DNA from: a virus
IMG/VR virus record: IMGVR_UViG_3300011013_000096
Span: 1-23,938 of that record
Length of the DNA: 23,938 nt
Direction: 5' to 3' (one strand)
Program-made: the position numbers and the translations under genes
Part shown: positions 1,111-9,438 of the stretch, one piece after another
How positions within the stretch are numbered: the stretch's first letter is position 1
How the letters are laid out: the number at the start of each line of letters is the position of its first letter
Notes under the pieces: generated by a model
What the model saw: only the letters and a program-made list of their open reading frames with translations
Told to the model about the DNA's origin: nothing
The model's database searches: none

Positions 1111-1677
1111 ATGAAAAAAATAAATAGAATGAAAAAATTAAGCACATTATTTAAAAAAGACCCTAACGATTTAGGGAGAGTAATTAATGAAGTAAACCCT
1201 GAAAACGAATGGGCTTTTACTGATGGGATACCAACACGTAAATTTGATGGCACAAGCTGTGCTATTATTAATGGCGAACTATACAAAAGGTTTGATTTAA
1301 AAAAAGGTAGAACTCTACCACCGAATGCTATATCTTGCCAAGAACCTGATAGTAAAAGTGGACACCATCCACATTGGGTAAAATGTGATAGAGAAGATAA
1401 AAGTAATAAGTGGCATTTTGTAGGCTTTGACTCTTTAGAAAATAAGGAGGATGGTACTTATGAGCTTTGTGGTAAAAAAGTACAAGGAAACCCTGAAAAT
1501 ATTGAAGGTCATCAATTAATTAAGCACGGTTCAGAAAGATTAAGTTTAGAAGTTGATTCTTTTGAATACATAAAGAAATACTTAACTGAAAACGATATTG
1601 AAGGCATTGTATTTCATCATAGAAATGATGATAGAATGTGTAAGATTAGAAAATCTGATTTTGGGATACGTAGGTAG
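1111..1677 (+). CDS. RNA ligase, RLIG1/DUF5565 type
   Basis: 188 aa with the ordered nucleotidyltransferase motifs of ATP-dependent RNA ligases. Motif I is KFDGTS with the predicted AMP-accepting Lys44, motif Ia is YKRFDLKKG (58-66), the III/IIIa-like block is GTYELCGKKVQGNPE (115-129) with Glu118, motif IV is IEGIVFHH (163-170) with Glu164, and motif V is MCKIRK (176-181). The family (eukaryotic RLIG1/C12orf29 and phage relatives) joins 5'-phosphate and 3'-OH RNA ends through an enzyme-AMP intermediate. In a phage this fits repair of tRNA cut by host anticodon nucleases. No partner kinase/phosphatase gene is visible. The gene stands alone, ending 8 nt before the first AAC/GTT palindrome, and may be the first unit of the cassette array. 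The motif order gives high confidence; the biological role is inference. Confidence 0.85.
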   Translation: MKKINRMKKLSTLFKKDPNDLGRVINEVNPENEWAFTDGIPTRKFDGTSCAIINGELYKRFDLKKGRTLPPNAISCQEPDSKSGHHPHWVKCDREDKSNKWHFVGFDSLENKEDGTYELCGKKVQGNPENIEGHQLIKHGSERLSLEVDSFEYIKKYLTENDIEGIVFHHRNDDRMCKIRKSDFGIRR

Positions 1678-1684
1678 TATTAAT

Positions 1685-1752
1685 GCTAACGCTAAATATA
1701 TTAAGCGTGGGAATAAGGAACGAATGAGCATGATTTATATATAATGTTATGC
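1685..1752 (+). repeat. attC-like palindromic junction S1
   Basis: Between the RNA ligase and XRE genes. AAC (1688-1690, in GCTAACG) is followed by 5 nt, a stem ATATAT plus AA, a loop of about 25 nt, the return stem TT plus ATATAT, 3 nt (AAT) and GTT (1746-1748, in GTTATGC). This is the same geometry as S2, S4, S5 and S6. The A/T-rich stem is weaker evidence alone than the agreement in layout. GTTATGCTTA to the right is matched inverted at the far end of the XRE gene. Confidence 0.6.
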
Positions 1753-1754
1753 TT

Positions 1755-1787
1755 ATTTTTTTATCTCAGAAATATTTATTACCTTTG
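1755..1787 (+). promoter_or_regulatory. Putative Bacteroidota-type promoter of the XRE gene
   Basis: TACCTTTG at 1780-1787 fits the Bacteroidota -7 box TAnnTTTG. A T-rich run (about 1755-1762) lies about 19 nt upstream, where the -33 box is expected but is imperfect. Transcription would start near 1793, ahead of ATG 1809. This argues against the alternative in-frame ATG at 1749, which would put the promoter inside the gene. Confidence 0.5.
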
Positions 1788-1808
1788 GTTAAATTAAAAT
1801 ACAAAATT

Positions 1809-2096
1809 ATGAACATAGGACAAGCTATAAGAACGCTAAGAAAAAATGAATTAATGAATCAAGAAGAGTTTGCGTCAAGTGTAGGTATAACACAATCTTA
1901 TTTATCATTAATTGAAAAAGGGCACAAAAAACCAAGTTTAGAAGTGTTACAACAAATGGCAGATATTTTAAATACTCCGTTGCCTGTTCTTTTTTGGTTT
2001 GGAATAGAAAGGGAAGATGTAGACGAAAAAAAGCAATACGCTTACGACACTTTAAAGCCCTCTATTGACAATTTGATTAATGAGGTTTTCAATTAA
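1809..2096 (+). CDS. XRE-family helix-turn-helix regulator
   Basis: 95 aa. Residues 5-60 form a Cro/C1-type HTH: IGQAIRTLRK, then MNQEEFASSVGITQSYLSLIEKG with the recognition helix near residues 27-36, then PSLEVLQQMADIL. The typical role is sequence-specific DNA binding as a dimer and transcriptional repression. The tail (61-95) has an aromatic segment (LFWFG) and an acidic helix that could dimerise. I chose ATG 1809, after ACAAAATT, because the domain begins there and a promoter box lies just upstream; the frame is open back to 1749. The gene sits alone between S1 and S2 as a single-gene cassette, with no obvious partner such as a toxin, so its target is unknown. Confidence 0.85.
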   Translation: MNIGQAIRTLRKNELMNQEEFASSVGITQSYLSLIEKGHKKPSLEVLQQMADILNTPLPVLFWFGIEREDVDEKKQYAYDTLKPSIDNLINEVFN

Positions 2097-2156
2097 GCAT
2101 AACGCATTGTGTATGGTGCGTATGCCGATAGGCTATGCAATATACACGTTGTTAGC
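2097..2156 (+). repeat. attC-like palindromic junction S2
   Basis: GCATAACG at the left edge, where AAC is 2101-2103. Then 5 nt (GCATT), a stem GTGTAT, further pairing of GCGTATGCC with GGCTATGC around a tight tip (GCCGATAGGC), the return stem ATACAC, 3 nt (GTT) and GTT 2151-2153 within GTTAGC. It is the best folded of the set and lies between the XRE and beta-helix genes. The left arm pairs with the start of the XRE cassette and the right arm with the end of the beta-helix cassette. Confidence 0.75.
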
Positions 2157-2192
2157 TACTGCGATTTATTAACTATAAAATTAAATATAAAT

Positions 2193-2792
2193 ATGATTAC
2201 AAGTATATCAAAAGAATTAAACAGAATTGAAATCCCATTTTTTAATGGAGAAATAAGTATGCTATCATTTGATTTAAGTGACTTAACTACTTTACCAAAT
2301 GAATTTAGAGAAACAGCAAAAGAAATGGTCAAGAGCCTACCTAACAAAGTAGGTGAAGCGTTTTTAACTGTACATGGAAAGTTTGTAAAAAAGTCAAAAA
2401 CTTTAAGACGTGGAGCAGCACATATTGATGGAAACTATTTAAAAGAAGTTGCTTCTTGGGGTTCTGGTGGTGGAAACGGTTGGAAAGTTGGTGAAAATGG
2501 AATGAAACTAACAAGTAAAGAACACGCTTTATCTTATGAGAATCAAAAAGGAGGCATGCTGATAGCATCAAATTACTCTGCTTGTAAAGGGTGGAACGGG
2601 GTGTTTGATGATAAAGCTGGAATTGGAGGTGATTGTTCTCACTTAAAATTAGATGAAGGTTTTATGCTTGAAGCAAACAAGGTTTATTACGGAAACTCAC
2701 AATTTGTACACGAAAGTTTGCCAGTTGATAAAGATGTGCATAGAATTATGTACAGAATCACTCTTCCTATAAACCACGAATGTAAGTTGTAG
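2193..2792 (+). CDS. Probable double-stranded beta-helix (Fe(II)/2-oxoglutarate-type) protein
   Basis: 199 aa from ATG 2193, which follows the A-rich leader TTAAATATAAAT; the frame is open back to 2109, but that part overlaps junction S2. An HxD pair (AHIDG, His77 and Asp79) is followed about 95 residues later by a second histidine (FVHES, His173) and Arg184/Arg188 in a strand-like segment (HRIMYRITLP). This order, HxD...H...R, is how Fe(II)/2OG oxygenases bind iron and 2-oxoglutarate. A Gly-rich stretch (91-95) and many polar turns lie between. The substrate cannot be told; base, nucleotide or protein hydroxylation are all open. It could instead be a metal-free cupin. It forms a single-gene cassette between S2 and S3. 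Confidence 0.5.
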   Translation: MITSISKELNRIEIPFFNGEISMLSFDLSDLTTLPNEFRETAKEMVKSLPNKVGEAFLTVHGKFVKKSKTLRRGAAHIDGNYLKEVASWGSGGGNGWKVGENGMKLTSKEHALSYENQKGGMLIASNYSACKGWNGVFDDKAGIGGDCSHLKLDEGFMLEANKVYYGNSQFVHESLPVDKDVHRIMYRITLPINHECKL

Positions 2793-2839
2793 CTAACGGT
2801 TTGGCTAAACTCCGTTTCCTTTAAATACGGAGAACAACG
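2793..2839 (+). repeat. Degenerate attC-like junction S3
   Basis: It begins CTAACGG (AAC 2795-2797) directly after the beta-helix stop. A perfect 6-bp stem CTCCGT (2810-2815) / ACGGAG (2827-2832) closes a loop of 11 nt, followed by AACAACG where the other sites have GTT. The left box matches its own cassette's start exactly over 9 nt, but the right box is not recognisable, so this junction seems altered or assembled differently. Confidence 0.5.
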
Positions 2840-2857
2840 ATTTAATAATAGAAAAAT

Positions 2858-3061
2858 ATGAGCGAAGAAACTAAGACTGTAAACAAGCAAGGCAATGGAG
2901 ATTTAGCTGTTGTTATCAAACGTGACTTAGGCAATCATTTAGCTGAAGTAATAAAAGAGTGTAGTAAAGGTATGAATCAATTAGAAACTAGTTCAAGAGA
3001 TTGGACTTGGCTGGCAAGTAAAAAGACATTAGCAGAAAGTATATTAATTCAATTCTGTTAG
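2858..3061 (+). CDS. 67-aa hypothetical protein
   Basis: ATG 2858 after AATAATAGAAAAAT, stop TAG 3059-3061. The product is soluble and likely helical in residues 15-40 (LAVVIKRDLGNHLAEVIKEC), with a Trp-rich stretch (RDWTWLASKK, 47-56) and two cysteines. No family recognised. It is the one unit of the array whose 5' boundary lacks the expected GTT arm matching its 3' arm (TTTGCTAAC, 3067-3075). Cassette membership is inferred from its position between S3 and S4. Confidence 0.6.
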   Translation: MSEETKTVNKQGNGDLAVVIKRDLGNHLAEVIKECSKGMNQLETSSRDWTWLASKKTLAESILIQFC

Positions 3062-3069
3062 TCATGTTT

Positions 3070-3120
3070 GCTAACGCTTAGTGTAAAATGGCGTTTTAAT
3101 GCATTTTAAACATTGTTGTA
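3070..3120 (+). repeat. attC-like palindromic junction S4
   Basis: GCTAACG (AAC 3073-3075), 5 nt, a stem GTGTAAAATG (3081-3090) paired with CATTTTAAAC (3102-3111) with one mismatch, a loop of 11 nt, 3 nt (ATT) and GTT 3115-3117. It lies in the 78-nt gap between the 67-aa and 80-aa genes and has the shared AAC/5/stem/3/GTT layout. The stem sequence is unrelated to those of the other sites. Confidence 0.75.
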
Positions 3121-3139
3121 AATCTTTTAAATACGAATT

Positions 3140-3382
3140 ATGAAAACGGAAATTAAAATAAACGAGATAACTATTGATAATGCCGACTTAATAAAACAAG
3201 AGTTGGAAAACGGAAAGAATTGGCAAATAACTATTTATGATGGTACAGACGATGATAAAGCAGTAGGTATTTTCTTAGAACAATCAGACTTGAGTAAAGG
3301 CTGCACTGTAATGTTTGAGCTAAACGAAAAAGAGGCATTATTTTTAGGAAAGTCTTTAATAGCGATGGCTGAAAGTATTTAA
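3140..3382 (+). CDS. 80-aa hypothetical protein
   Basis: ATG 3140 (leader AAATACGAATT) to TAA 3380-3382. The product looks like a small alpha/beta protein: strand (KTEIKINEITI), helix (NADLIKQELE), strands (NWQITIYDGT, VGIFLEQ, TVMFELNEKEA), helix (LFLGKSLIAMAESI). It is acidic with one cysteine. I do not recognise the family. It is a single-gene unit between S4 and S5. The DNA flanking it on both sides carries inverted GTTRTAAA and TTAAATAC blocks, and the 3' copy overlaps the last codons and stop. Confidence 0.6.
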   Translation: MKTEIKINEITIDNADLIKQELENGKNWQITIYDGTDDDKAVGIFLEQSDLSKGCTVMFELNEKEALFLGKSLIAMAESI

Positions 3383-3387
3383 TTGTT

Positions 3388-3487
3388 TATAACGCCAAAG
3401 TATATGGTTTTGTAAGCCATAGCAGAAATTTACAAGTTAAAAACGAATATTAATTAGGCTTATAAACTATATACATTGTTGTGTGTA
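3388..3487 (+). repeat. attC-like palindromic junction S5 (long arm)
   Basis: AAC 3391-3393 in TAACGCC, 6 nt (GCCAAA), then an arm GTATATGGTTTTGTAAGCC (3400-3418) whose inverted partner GGCTTATAAACTATATAC (3457-3474) matches it with few mismatches. The loop is 38 nt, and 3 nt (ATT) precede GTT 3478-3480. It has the longest stem in the array. It separates the 80-aa gene from the 69-aa gene. Confidence 0.8.
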
Positions 3488-3518
3488 GTACGGAATTTAA
3501 GCCACAAACTTTATTGAA

Positions 3519-3728
3519 ATGAATATTTACGCAAAAGAAGGAACAAAAGTAAAATACACGGGGAATGGAGGTTATGACAGTCATAAAGAACACGCTAATA
3601 AGTATTTGAAAGTAGGCGAAACATATACTGTATTAAACACAAATGTAAGTGGATGGCATACTGACGTGTTCTTGAAAGAAATACCAAACCAATGTTTTAA
3701 CTCTGTTCATTTTGAAGAACTAACGTAG
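3519..3728 (+). CDS. 69-aa small SH3-like protein
   Basis: ATG 3519 after CTTTATTGAA; stop TAG 3726-3728. The sequence reads as a compact beta-barrel: GTKVKYTGNGGYD, a turn, LKVGETYTVLNTNV, then GWHTDVFLKEIP and FNSVHFEEL. Conserved-looking features are the L-x-x-G-E-x-Y-T-V strand, a GWHT turn and the F-N-S-V-x-F ending. They resemble small phage and host proteins with an SH3-like fold. The molecular role is unknown. The gene is a single-gene cassette flanked by near-perfect inverted 14-mers (3478-3491 and 3728-3741). Confidence 0.65.
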   Translation: MNIYAKEGTKVKYTGNGGYDSHKEHANKYLKVGETYTVLNTNVSGWHTDVFLKEIPNQCFNSVHFEELT

Positions 3729-3732
3729 TATT

Positions 3733-3790
3733 ACACACAACGTACTTGTATAAAAAATCGTTTTAATGTTTTTTATACGGTGTTATATAC
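3733..3790 (+). repeat. attC-like palindromic junction S6
   Basis: AAC 3739-3741 in CACACAACG, 6 nt (GTACTT), a perfect 10-bp stem GTATAAAAAA (3748-3757) / TTTTTTATAC (3769-3778), a loop of 11 nt, 3 nt (GGT) and GTT 3782-3784. It has the same geometry as S5 with a different stem. The left box belongs to the 69-aa cassette and the right box to the methyltransferase cassette. Confidence 0.8.
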
Positions 3791-3803
3791 AGTAATTAAA
3801 AAA

Positions 3804-3830
3804 TTGGCGTGGCTGACGACAGGAAGCCAA
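3804..3830 (+). promoter_or_regulatory. Small hairpin in the methyltransferase leader
   Basis: TTGGC (3804-3808) can pair with GCCAA (3826-3830), or GGCT (3811-3814) with AGCC (3825-3828). The two pairings exclude each other. The G+C-rich patch stands out in an AT-rich leader 22 nt before the methyltransferase start and could affect its translation or be a residue of the cassette end. No T-run follows, so it is not an intrinsic terminator. Confidence 0.3.
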
Positions 3831-3851
3831 ACTGCGTAATAAAAATAAAAT

Positions 3852-4634
3852 ATGAGTAAAAATATAGAATTAGATAAATTTTACACACCAAAAGAAACGG
3901 CAAAGAAATGTATTGATATGTTTTGGCAAACATTTTTTGGTGTTACAGAAATAATTGAACCAAGTGCAGGAAATGGTGCTTTTAGTTTGCAAATACCAAA
4001 CTGTATATCTTACGATTTAGAACCTGAACACGAAAGCATAATTAAACAAGACTTTCTTAAATTAGATTTACCTTACAAGCAAGGCAGAGCATTTATAGGA
4101 AACCCACCTTTTGGTGATAGAAATAATTTAAGTAGAAGTTTTTATAAACACGCTTGTAAAATGGCTGATATGATAGGTTTTATTTTACCCATTAGCCAAT
4201 TAAATAATACAGATAGTTTATACTTGTTTGATTTGGTTAAAAGCGTTGATTTAGGTTCTTTAGAATATAGCGGAATGAAAGTACATTGTTGTTTTAATCT
4301 ATACCACAGACCCAAAGATGGTAAGTTAAATAAGAAGCCTAAATATAAAATAGACTGGATGAAAATACATAGAGATGACGAGAATGGTTATGAAAATATA
4401 AAATATGATTTATGTATTACGAGAAGAGGTAATTTAGGTAAAGAAAGATTTGAAAACATAAATAGTAGTTCTTTTAAAATAATATTAAAAGATAAATCAA
4501 TCATTGATTTTGTAAGGAATACTATAATCTCTTTTGATTGGCATAATTACAAAACACACCAATCAGCACCCTGTATGAGTAAAAATGATATTTACAGGCT
4601 TTTTTCACGCAAGAGTGAGTCGCTAATTTTTTAA
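3852..4634 (+). CDS. Adenine-type DNA methyltransferase (orphan)
   Basis: 260 aa. Motif I of the SAM pocket is EPSAGNGAF (36-44), an acidic residue after strand 2 is D55 (ISYDLEP), and the catalytic motif IV is NPPFG (84-88), the (D/N)PP(Y/F) form of amino-methyltransferases that modify adenine N6. The N-terminal FYTPKETAKKCID (10-22) is the usual TP-x-x-x-A lead-in of these enzymes. The C-terminal half is basic and probably recognises DNA. No restriction endonuclease lies beside it, so it is orphan. In a phage the likely use is protecting its own DNA or changing gene expression. RNA as the target cannot be excluded. ATG 3852 follows AAAATAAAAT. It is the last clear single-gene unit of the array, flanked by matching inverted 16-mers (3782-3797, 4633-4648). 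Confidence 0.8.
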   Translation: MSKNIELDKFYTPKETAKKCIDMFWQTFFGVTEIIEPSAGNGAFSLQIPNCISYDLEPEHESIIKQDFLKLDLPYKQGRAFIGNPPFGDRNNLSRSFYKHACKMADMIGFILPISQLNNTDSLYLFDLVKSVDLGSLEYSGMKVHCCFNLYHRPKDGKLNKKPKYKIDWMKIHRDDENGYENIKYDLCITRRGNLGKERFENINSSSFKIILKDKSIIDFVRNTIISFDWHNYKTHQSAPCMSKNDIYRLFSRKSESLIF

Positions 4635-4639
4635 TTATT

Positions 4640-4722
4640 GTATATAACAACAGAATAAATAACAGGTCTAATTCTGGTAAGGGTGTCGCACACAGAGGAA
4701 GTTCACCACCTGTTTTATAAAT
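4640..4722 (+). repeat. Irregular attC-like junction S7 at the end of the array
   Basis: The left box GTATATAAC (AAC 4646-4648) pairs with the start of the methyltransferase cassette. Inside, AACAGGT (4661-4667) pairs exactly with ACCTGTT (4708-4714) around a 40-nt loop that holds a smaller GTGTCGCACAC hairpin. The spacing from the box to the stem does not follow the 5-6/3 rule of the other sites, and no matching right-hand cassette end was found. Confidence 0.45.
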
Positions 4723-4883
4723 CATTAACAAACAACAAACCGTTCCGCTTTCGGGAACATAAAACGAATACCAGTGTACTAGCCATGCAAACATTCAATC
4801 GAGTTGGTGGTGGCTCCACTCTCCGAAAGGACGGACTGCCTTGTTGCAGAATACTCGCATTGAAGCTGAATAAAAACAAAATT
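4723..4883 (+). other. Non-coding leader with several hairpins
   Basis: This stretch lies between the array and the micro-proteins. It is richer in G+C than the array and contains short stems: GTTCC/GGAAC (4742-4758), GTGG/CCAC near 4807-4820 and TCC-GAAA-GGA near 4825-4836. An open frame crosses it from GTG 4683, but its translation has low complexity, no recognisable domain and no start signal. A structured RNA or leader is possible; this is inference from eye-read pairing only. Confidence 0.3.
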
Positions 4884-4988
4884 ATGGACGCTATAGGATT
4901 TGCGGCAATTCTTTGGGTAACACTCGAAATTGCTAAATGGATTTACAAAAAAGAAAACGAACATGCTCGAGAAAACAGAGAGAAATGA
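4884..4988 (+). CDS. 34-aa single-helix membrane micro-protein
   Basis: ATG 4884 follows AAAAACAAAATT, the same leader type as before other genes here. Residues 3-20 (AIGFAAILWVTLEIAKWI) form one membrane-length hydrophobic helix, followed by a strongly charged tail (YKKENEHARENREK). The frame is open further upstream from GTG 4683, but the sequence ahead of 4884 looks non-coding. The next micro-gene overlaps its 3' end by 26 nt in another frame. Size, topology and overlap are reminiscent of nested lysis or spanin-like pairs, but there is no family evidence and it is far from the likely lysis genes. Confidence 0.5.
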   Translation: MDAIGFAAILWVTLEIAKWIYKKENEHARENREK

Positions 4989-5046
4989 AACCATTTTATG
5001 GGTATTGCTTTTCGCAATTGTGATAGTATCAAGATTCATTTGTTGA
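4963..5046 (+). CDS. 27-aa single-helix membrane micro-protein, nested
   Basis: ATG 4963 to TGA 5044-5046, starting inside the previous micro-gene in a different frame. The protein has a charged N-terminus (MLEKTERNE) and a hydrophobic stretch ILWVLLFAIVIVS (11-23), ending RFIC. Two consecutive tiny frames that each encode one clean transmembrane helix are unlikely by chance, but each is short, so confidence is moderate. Function unknown. Confidence 0.4.
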   Translation: MLEKTERNETILWVLLFAIVIVSRFIC

Positions 5047-8922: not shown

Positions 8923-9438
8923 ATGTCAAGATTTGCACAAATAACAGACTTCAAAGTTGAGCCTTTCAAGATACCGTTGAACCCAGTTCAAAGCGCTGAC
9001 TTGCAGGCAATAATTGATGAGGTTGAGGATTATTACATCCCACGATTGTTTGGCAAGGATCTGGCTGACTTATTTATATTGGATTGGGATGCTTTACCCG
9101 TTGGAGCAATTGACCCGAGATTCGTTTTTATTTACAATCCTTTTACCTACCAAGATGGTTCGTTCTTTCTTCAAAGCGAAGGGATTAAAAAAATGATCCA
9201 AGGCATTGTTTATTACAAATACTTACGTGATCGCTTTACAAGAGTAGCCACCACCGGTGGAAAGAAAACTCAAAGCGCAAACGCGAGTAATGTGAGCGGC
9301 ACGCATCACGACATAAACAGGAGGTACAACTCTTCAATCGAAACGTTTCAAGTACTTCAAACATACATGAGCTGTATCGATTCTGGTTTATACCCTGAAT
9401 ATGACGGAATCCATGAACGGTTTAACCATATTTTTTAG
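8923..9438 (+). CDS. Head-tail connector (adaptor) candidate
   Basis: 171 aa. It begins MSRFAQITDFKVEPFKIPLNP and is largely helical, with DLQAIIDEVEDYYIPRLFGKDLADLF (26-51), a Ser/Gly turn, SEGIKKMIQGIVYYKYLRD (84-102) and a polar loop TTGGKKTQSANASN. This order (long first helix, YL/RLFG turn, YF/YY-helix, then an N/S-rich loop) is common to the adaptor-like proteins of Bacteroidota phages, encoded just after the capsid gene. The assignment rests mainly on gene order. The stop TAG 9436-9438 touches the next start. Confidence 0.6.
   Translation: MSRFAQITDFKVEPFKIPLNPVQSADLQAIIDEVEDYYIPRLFGKDLADLFILDWDALPVGAIDPRFVFIYNPFTYQDGSFFLQSEGIKKMIQGIVYYKYLRDRFTRVATTGGKKTQSANASNVSGTHHDINRRYNSSIETFQVLQTYMSCIDSGLYPEYDGIHERFNHIF

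Follow-up and report, generated by a model that had tools for sequence, protein, structure and literature searches.

The window analysed here is the complete IMG/VR virus record IMGVR_UViG_3300011013_000096 (23,938 bases), which carries portal, major head and tape-measure genes (PHROGs). It contains a run of seven genes that had been proposed, from the sequence alone, to form an integron-like cassette array lacking an integrase (the original prediction), and it is this array and the hairpin sites between its genes that we describe (Table 1). Among the gene assignments made at that stage, the RNA ligase is borne out by Pfam and PHROGs together, and the XRE regulator by a match to HTH_3. The DNA methyltransferase stands on its PHROGs match, but its Pfam matches fall below the cut-off, and the beta-helix protein proposed for gene 3 is not recovered: this gene has no Pfam match and falls only in phrog_8970, a family of unknown function.

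Each of the seven genes had been said to be isolated by an imperfect palindrome, with four or five junctions sharing one architecture and stems of unrelated sequence. A mechanical finder recovers S1, S2, S4, S5 and S6, all on the plus strand and within 2.1 kb, each consisting of AAC, 5-6 nt, stem, loop, stem, exactly 3 nt and GTT. The common architecture holds for five of the seven junctions. Two do not conform, namely S3 (2795-2840) and the junction that closes the array (from 4646). At the latter, no core follows the right end of the methyltransferase cassette, TATAAC, which directly adjoins other DNA. Contrary to the original prediction, the stems are related in sequence and follow a family pattern, about GTATATGAG / TTATATAC. 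When the seven junctions were dinucleotide-shuffled 1000 times, no junction reached a score of at least 7.5 in 982 shuffles, one did so in 17 and two in 1, with site geometry and threshold having been chosen after the sites had been seen; the notion that the palindromes are no better than chance is therefore not supported. Over the whole window the finder gives 7 matches against a shuffle mean of 0.81 and a maximum of 3, and the two that lie inside genes (4045-4140 and 9328-9388) are taken as chance.

Table 1. Units and hairpin sites of the window, in order of position, followed by two elements from other loci
Feature	Position	Strand	Ends	Basis or remark
RNA ligase unit	1111..1690	+	3' end ...ATTAATGCTAAC	phrog_14301, E 2.8e-70; 5' terminal repeat and site missing
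S1, hairpin core between AAC and GTT	1688..1748	+		Finder, shuffles
XRE-regulator cassette	1746..2103	+	GTTATGCTTA / TAAGCATAAC	HTH_3, E 5.5e-15
S2	2101..2153	+		Finder, shuffles
Gene-3 cassette	2151..2797	+	GTTAGCTAC / GTAGCTAAC	phrog_8970
S3, probably decayed	2795..2857	+		Left arm AACGGTTTGGCTAAA retained, right arm and GTT gone; fold z -0.63 for 2795-2840
Gene-4 unit (67 aa)	2858..3075	+	3' end ...TTTGCTAAC	No family; 5' end lost
S4	3073..3117	+		Finder, shuffles
Gene-5 cassette (80 aa)	3115..3393	+	GTTGTAAAT / GTTTATAAC	Pairing imperfect
S5	3391..3480	+		Finder, shuffles
Gene-6 cassette (69 aa)	3478..3741	+	GTTGTGTGTAGTAC / GTATTACACACAAC	phrog_8472
S6	3739..3784	+		Finder, shuffles
DNA methyltransferase cassette	3782..4648	+	Terminal inverted repeats, 29 nt, 93%	phrog_799, E 7.3e-11
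Docking-like hairpin	L442:932-976, L444:1503-1545, L445:1501-1543, L447:152-191, L428, L429, L430			phi12:1, phi18:1, phi17:1 (twice), phi39:1, phi19:1, phi10:1, Nekkels_1 (changed end)
Mini-cassette GTTGTAAAATCGTTTTAATGTTTTACAAC	L059:4544, L222, L233, L242, L287, L319, L397, L404, L411, L420, L442:906			One variant, in L233

The units between the sites carry terminal repeats of their own. Within a unit, the start matches the unit's own end in reverse complement, most extensively in the methyltransferase unit, and over 14 nt at 93% in the gene-6 unit; the matching end bases number 13/14 for gene 6, 12/14 for the XRE regulator, 10/14 for gene 3 and 9/14 for gene 5. An RNA-ligase cassette elsewhere (L015) keeps both ends, GTTAGCATTAGTAC...GTAGTATTAATGCTAAC. 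Among the cassettes of the collected loci, own start and own end agree at seven or more of the 9 nt beyond GTT in 31 of 90. The same agreement is seen in 1.8% of pairs made up of ends from different cassettes, and between the two arms of one site in 6 of 223 cases. At least five of seven R-box positions match in 131 of 252 cassettes, a count in which some low scorers span a missed site. Homologous cassettes differ in the R box in four of ten pairs, and in three of those four both ends have changed together. At repeat position 11, G is found in 67% of starts and the opposing T in 87% of ends (511 sites). A cassette can accordingly be written as GTT-NNNNNNN, mostly followed by G, ... T, then NNNNNNN-AAC, with a hairpin core AACG...TGTT between neighbours, and its longest open reading frame is oriented along the site direction in 101 of 106 cases.

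The order of these units varies between related sequences, which was one of the points on which the original prediction could have failed: the gene-3 cassette, the methyltransferase gene and the core S2 have other neighbours in L010, L003 and L005. In L010, which encodes a homolog of the gene-3 protein with 95% amino acid identity, the gene-3 cassette is the same from GTTAGCTACTGCG onward, but lies behind a different core; in L015 this other core is followed by the RNA-ligase cassette. In L005 a methyltransferase stands behind the S2 core, and methyltransferase homologs with other flanks occur among L001-L009. L117 has a homologous start of the gene-6 cassette, and the XRE cassette DNA has 71.6% identity over 174 nt to Flavobacterium phages. 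L063 and L135 share a cassette that is 99.7% identical, and diverge directly 3' of GGCTAACG. The swap boundaries between related sequences, judged by eye, fall at AAC and GTT.

Two sets of related phages define the exchanged unit more closely. The Cellulophaga phages phi12:1, phi18:1 and phi17:1 have in common a gene ending GTTTAAC/G (the slash marks the boundary) and a right flank AAC/TACCATATATAAAA (AAC/TACC). Between these flanks lie gp6 in phi18:1 and gp8 in phi17:1, both of which have a 5' core of their own and end repeats that match. In phi12:1 the place is taken by a methyltransferase cassette, likewise with a core and repeats of its own, and then by gp5, which lacks a clear site or matching repeat. 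In phi17:1 the right flank recurs further on, behind another cassette. In the same way, the upstream cassette and AAC/TACAATAT are common to L131 and L441, which differ in the core and gene between. Since a different 5' core and gene stand between the same flanks, the unit exchanged in these two sets is a core plus the gene on its right, with AAC on both sides. A third set, phi13:2, phi18:3 and phi19:3, defines the right boundary only, with AAC/AATGTTATATAAC in common and different cassettes before it. The classical arrangement cited with the original prediction, in which each unit ends with an attC site, is thereby reversed, as the core lies on the 5' side of the gene that is exchanged. Viewed from the opposite strand, the same exchange unit corresponds to a G^TT crossover with a spacer ending in C, as in attC, and with the gene reversed. 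A search for an empty version of the Cellulophaga locus gave none: five records cover 80% or more of the joined query, and every one of them matches it in two pieces. Unit ends in seven Cellulophaga phages also carry a docking-like hairpin, AACTACCATATATAAAA(A/C)CGTTTTAATGTTTTATATA.AATGTT, which is possibly attI-like.

How closely a core is tied to either neighbour can be assessed from 511 site contexts. Pairs with the upstream cassette in common (21 pairs, 14 families) never have the same core, and pairs with the downstream cassette in common (65 pairs, 30 families) have it in five; a smaller earlier set gave another core in 31 of 34 pairs of the latter kind. Conversely, among 890 pairs with a core in common, the upstream cassette is the same in none and the downstream cassette in five. 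The background same-core rate is 0.68%, and the downstream linkage is therefore above chance (P 9e-5, the pairs not being independent); the difference between downstream and upstream linkage is not significant (Fisher 0.33).

The sites belong to a single family that occurs in hundreds of viral stretches. In an alignment of 28 sites, 95.9% of the cells are paired and both-side changes occur at 11 of 11 stem pairs, although the 28 were picked for pairing and the 511 were found by pairing, so that pair counts are biased upward. A covariance model (R1) gives 34 matches at E<=1 in 29 sources, 33 of them on the gene strand and 16, by our count, outside the training set; it misses 10 of the 28 training sites, mostly long-loop ones. 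In 80 sources, nearly all fetched by site pattern, there are 136 matches at E<=0.05. Four strict patterns match at least 120, 75, at least 120 and 41 viral-contig stretches (raw counts with no shuffled control, some stretches sharing a contig). Among the 511 distinct sites, at least 96.9% have Watson-Crick pairs at stem positions 1-6. Position 7, by contrast, is a G-T pair in 75.7% of them and position 12 in 61.4%, whereas T-G stays below 1% at both. Counted from the G of GTT, stem position 7 is 10 nt away on one side and repeat position 11 is 10 nt away on the other. The fixed G-T pairs, C-A on the other strand, may serve as a strand signal in place of extrahelical bases.

In chromosomes the strict pattern was found in 1 of 395 genomes in the group of G001 and 1 of 100 in the family of G297, and a single genome accounts for both. 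This pattern is narrow (loop 15-45), and a covariance search of two whole genomes scored 150 candidates each, so chromosomal absence is not established. As for the cargo, a loose motif count gives methyltransferase-like motifs in 26 of 106 cassette proteins, and of ten picked proteins two have D12 or N6_N4 methylase matches and one a MUG113/T5orf172 match above the Pfam cut-off. The methyltransferases and small proteins may be swappable counter-defence or accessory genes. At 11 loci a gene-less mini-cassette stands in place of a gene cassette, and a site-like hairpin pattern lies beside a methyltransferase gene in Synechococcus phage S-CBS2 (L238, 3319-6318).

The window is derived from a tailed phage, which probably has a flavobacterial host. 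Its portal protein has matches in 111 phage records, every one below 60% identity, including, by phage name, 22 of Moraxella, 17 of Polaribacter and 10 of Cellulophaga, with other hosts in the best-listed rows. For the DNA of the array there are matches in 28 phage records, of which 23 are of Flavobacterium, 2 of Polaribacter, 1 of Tenacibaculum and 2 of Synechococcus. Upstream of the array, repeats of the form CGTTCG(TAATGG) are present at 463-486, 807-830 and 1097-1111, just 5' of successive gene starts, the third copy being read by eye.

On balance, if by no wide measure, we regard it as probable that mobile gene cassettes make up this region, in an array that has partly decayed, with folded sites on which a tyrosine recombinase acts in trans. 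The decay refers to the RNA ligase and gene-4 units, which have lost their 5' site. According to this proposal, a cassette would usually comprise one gene with private terminal inverted repeats, separated from its neighbours by a hairpin core. When the ends of a cassette are brought together, as in an excised circle, the repeats could pair, and with the core form an attC-like folded site, in which an internal loop of 5-6/3 nt separates an R-like stem, about 10 bp long, from an L-like stem. The folded single strand would then be the substrate of an integron- or Xer-type tyrosine recombinase, supplied by the host or another element, and exchange at both boundaries would be accounted for if both strands were used. 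For 22 cassettes, the mean folding energies are -10.4 to -10.9 kcal/mol in the array form versus -14.9 to -15.9 kcal/mol in the circle form. Array sites fold less well because the two repeats at one array site do not match, and this weaker folding would favour insertion over excision.

Several observations weigh against this proposal. The 22 cassettes were chosen for matching ends, and their better folding as circles is largely by construction; the pair counts suffer from the selection described above. The fold energies of the five window sites on the plus strand, a check suggested with the original prediction, are weak and only modestly better than those of shuffles (z from -0.2 to -2.4), and the DNA energy minimum of S1 is another stem than the proposed one. 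Folding energy was abandoned as a test, being too weak in AT-rich DNA. The core is kept with its downstream gene in only the five pairs given above, and core plus gene is therefore no stable unit. Furthermore, an enzyme is not found where it might be expected. The window, possibly a fragment, has no TIGR02249 or PF00589 match in its 23,938 bases, in agreement with the reported lack of an integron integrase, and the hope that a tyrosine recombinase would turn up elsewhere in it was disappointed. PF00589 is absent from 63 of 70 array-bearing viral records (present in 3 of 20 and 4 of 50), a sample drawn from several hundred, in which L131 and L280 were included because a motif scan had already shown a recombinase. 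R1 gives no match in 20 short IntI loci and two viral recombinase loci, and in 11.6-19.9 kb around 20 IntI genes it gives one strong match (L201) and three weak ones (L193, L196).

Two sources of the enzyme were considered and rejected. A phage-encoded recombinase is exemplified by L131:11288-12127 on the minus strand, a 279-aa Xer/IntI-like protein below the NCBIfam cut-offs, which has a cassette array on one side and a portal-like gene (read by eye) on the other; the array and portal gene of the window are likewise neighbours. A scan of viral contigs for relatives of this protein gave L441 and L440 only. As L440 matches at 100% and its contig has the same length (13,169 b), it is probably the same record. 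Most array-bearing records lack PF00589, as noted. For a chromosomal IntI, 104 of 390 sampled genomes in the group of G001 have a protein above the TIGR02249 cut-off, yet the surroundings of 20 gave the single strong R1 match. This frequency of IntI is higher than the literature on Bacteroidetes suggests, IntegronFinder 2.0 naming one complete integron in Bacteroidetes proper, that of Salinibacter ruber, in the part of the article consulted (PMC9024848). In G013, a relaxed finder identifies three sites of this kind, from 3.8 kb off intI, one of which is scored by R1, and a DNA search locates a fourth copy elsewhere; the G013 IntI gene has no megablast match in phages. Repeats of other kinds lie near several of the intI genes, some of them starting with TAAC, and repeated TAAC-starting cores are present near the integron integrases of L184, L194, L195 and L198, in the group of G001. 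We infer that the enzyme is supplied in trans.

A more specific proposal, which we hold only tentatively and which may well prove wrong, is that a distinct kind of cassette system is common to flavobacterial phages, characterised by private repeats, interchangeable 5' cores, exchange at AAC and GTT and, in unrelated Cellulophaga phages, a docking hairpin AACTACCATATAT...AATGTT where units would accumulate. The trans-acting enzyme would not necessarily be a known IntI, and phages would be the main reservoir.

The rival that survives best, although we consider it unlikely, is an ordinary cluster of attC sites lacking an integron integrase (CALIN), in which plain attC cassettes were acquired from a host integron by canonical IntI recombination. 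The AAC and GTT ends, the folded site and the pairing of cassette ends are all compatible with this, as are the frequency of IntI in the group of G001 and the proximity of the G013 sites to intI. The R-box consensus argues against it, GTTRRRY being present in 53 and RYYYAAC in 41 of the 511 sites. In established integron biology, the canonical attC core stays with its upstream gene; here it does so in none of the 21 pairs, and the exchanged unit has its core 5' of the gene. Experimental data are available for the flavobacterial Polaribacter phage P12002L, which is among the phages with attC clusters lacking IntI described by Qi et al. 2023 (PMC9892861). In the sections of that article consulted, IntI1 recombined P12002L_attC2, as in a canonical attC on the bottom strand only with no recombinants from the top strand, and did not recombine P12002L_attC1. 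R1 detects four sites in P12002L at E<=0.002 (30005-30059, 32220-32284, 38032-38093 and 38876-38939), and the window therefore belongs with P12002L. Judging from the R' box GTTAGGC and two flanking methyltransferases, P12002L_attC2 is probably the 30005 site. That a phage containing this family has a site recombined by IntI1 supports the CALIN explanation, and the lack of top-strand use counts against the both-strand use in our own proposal, at least by IntI1. Integrons use mainly the bottom strand, according to the part consulted of PMC8946536.

Phage mosaicism, i.e., homologous or relaxed-fidelity recombination through near-identical cores without a site-specific enzyme, seems improbable. 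Short homology does exist, as shown by the 890 pairs in which identical or near-identical cores stand beside different genes. The swaps, however, mostly join different cores at AAC or GTT (21/21 and 60/65 pairs), where few bases are shared, and neither the private end repeats nor their joint change are explained. That the hairpins are transcription terminators or RNA-processing signals with only incidental modularity is very hard to credit, for although G-T pairs at fixed stem positions favour pairing of the coding strand, neither of the two terminator-like matches in 1600-5000 (shuffle mean 1.3) is at a site, the sites have no Rfam match at E<=1, and the end repeats and swaps would be left unexplained.

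If the array of mobile cassettes is correctly interpreted, a site family found in hundreds of viral stretches would imply that phages commonly exchange cassettes, that current models overlook most of this, and that phages have gained a general means to swap methyltransferases and other small genes. The decoupling of core and gene makes the strand choice and site polarity of folded-site recombination testable in cultured Cellulophaga baltica phages.

Compared with known systems, the description as integron-like cassettes is upheld by the private repeats, the swap boundaries and the related phages, but not by the R box or by the relation of core to upstream gene. As in integron cassettes, the start of a cassette is complementary to its own end, and the sites, selected for that geometry, are imperfect palindromes with AAC...GTT ends, folded R and L stems, a spacer and a variable terminal loop as in attC. 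They differ from attC in the rarity of the R-box consensus, in having G-T pairs fixed at positions 7 and 12 of the stem, and in a core that lies 5' of the exchanged gene and is unlinked to, rather than kept with, the gene upstream. The record has no intI match, as a complete integron would, and no terminator-like match at any site. The pdif modules of plasmids, which are moved by XerCD, have a conserved site sequence of about 28 bp. The arrangement proposed here resembles them in having gene modules between recombination sites and a recombinase in trans, and is unlike them in that the arm sequences vary from site to site. The closest counterpart is the CALIN of P12002L, with methyltransferase cassettes in a flavobacterial phage, no integrase, and R1 matches; arrays in flavobacterial phages, on which the original prediction was undecided, were thus already in print. 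In the consulted sections of PMC9892861, 17 CALINs are reported in a screen of 10,705 phages, two sites are named in P12002L compared with the four found by R1, and there is no description of private end repeats, core and gene decoupling or 5'-core exchange, as seen here. Among the papers listed in the literature searched, without preprints or supplements, there is no account of this site family beyond that article. Phage CALINs being known, it is the extent of the family, the private repeats, the polarity and the decoupling of core and gene that, as far as this literature shows, are new.

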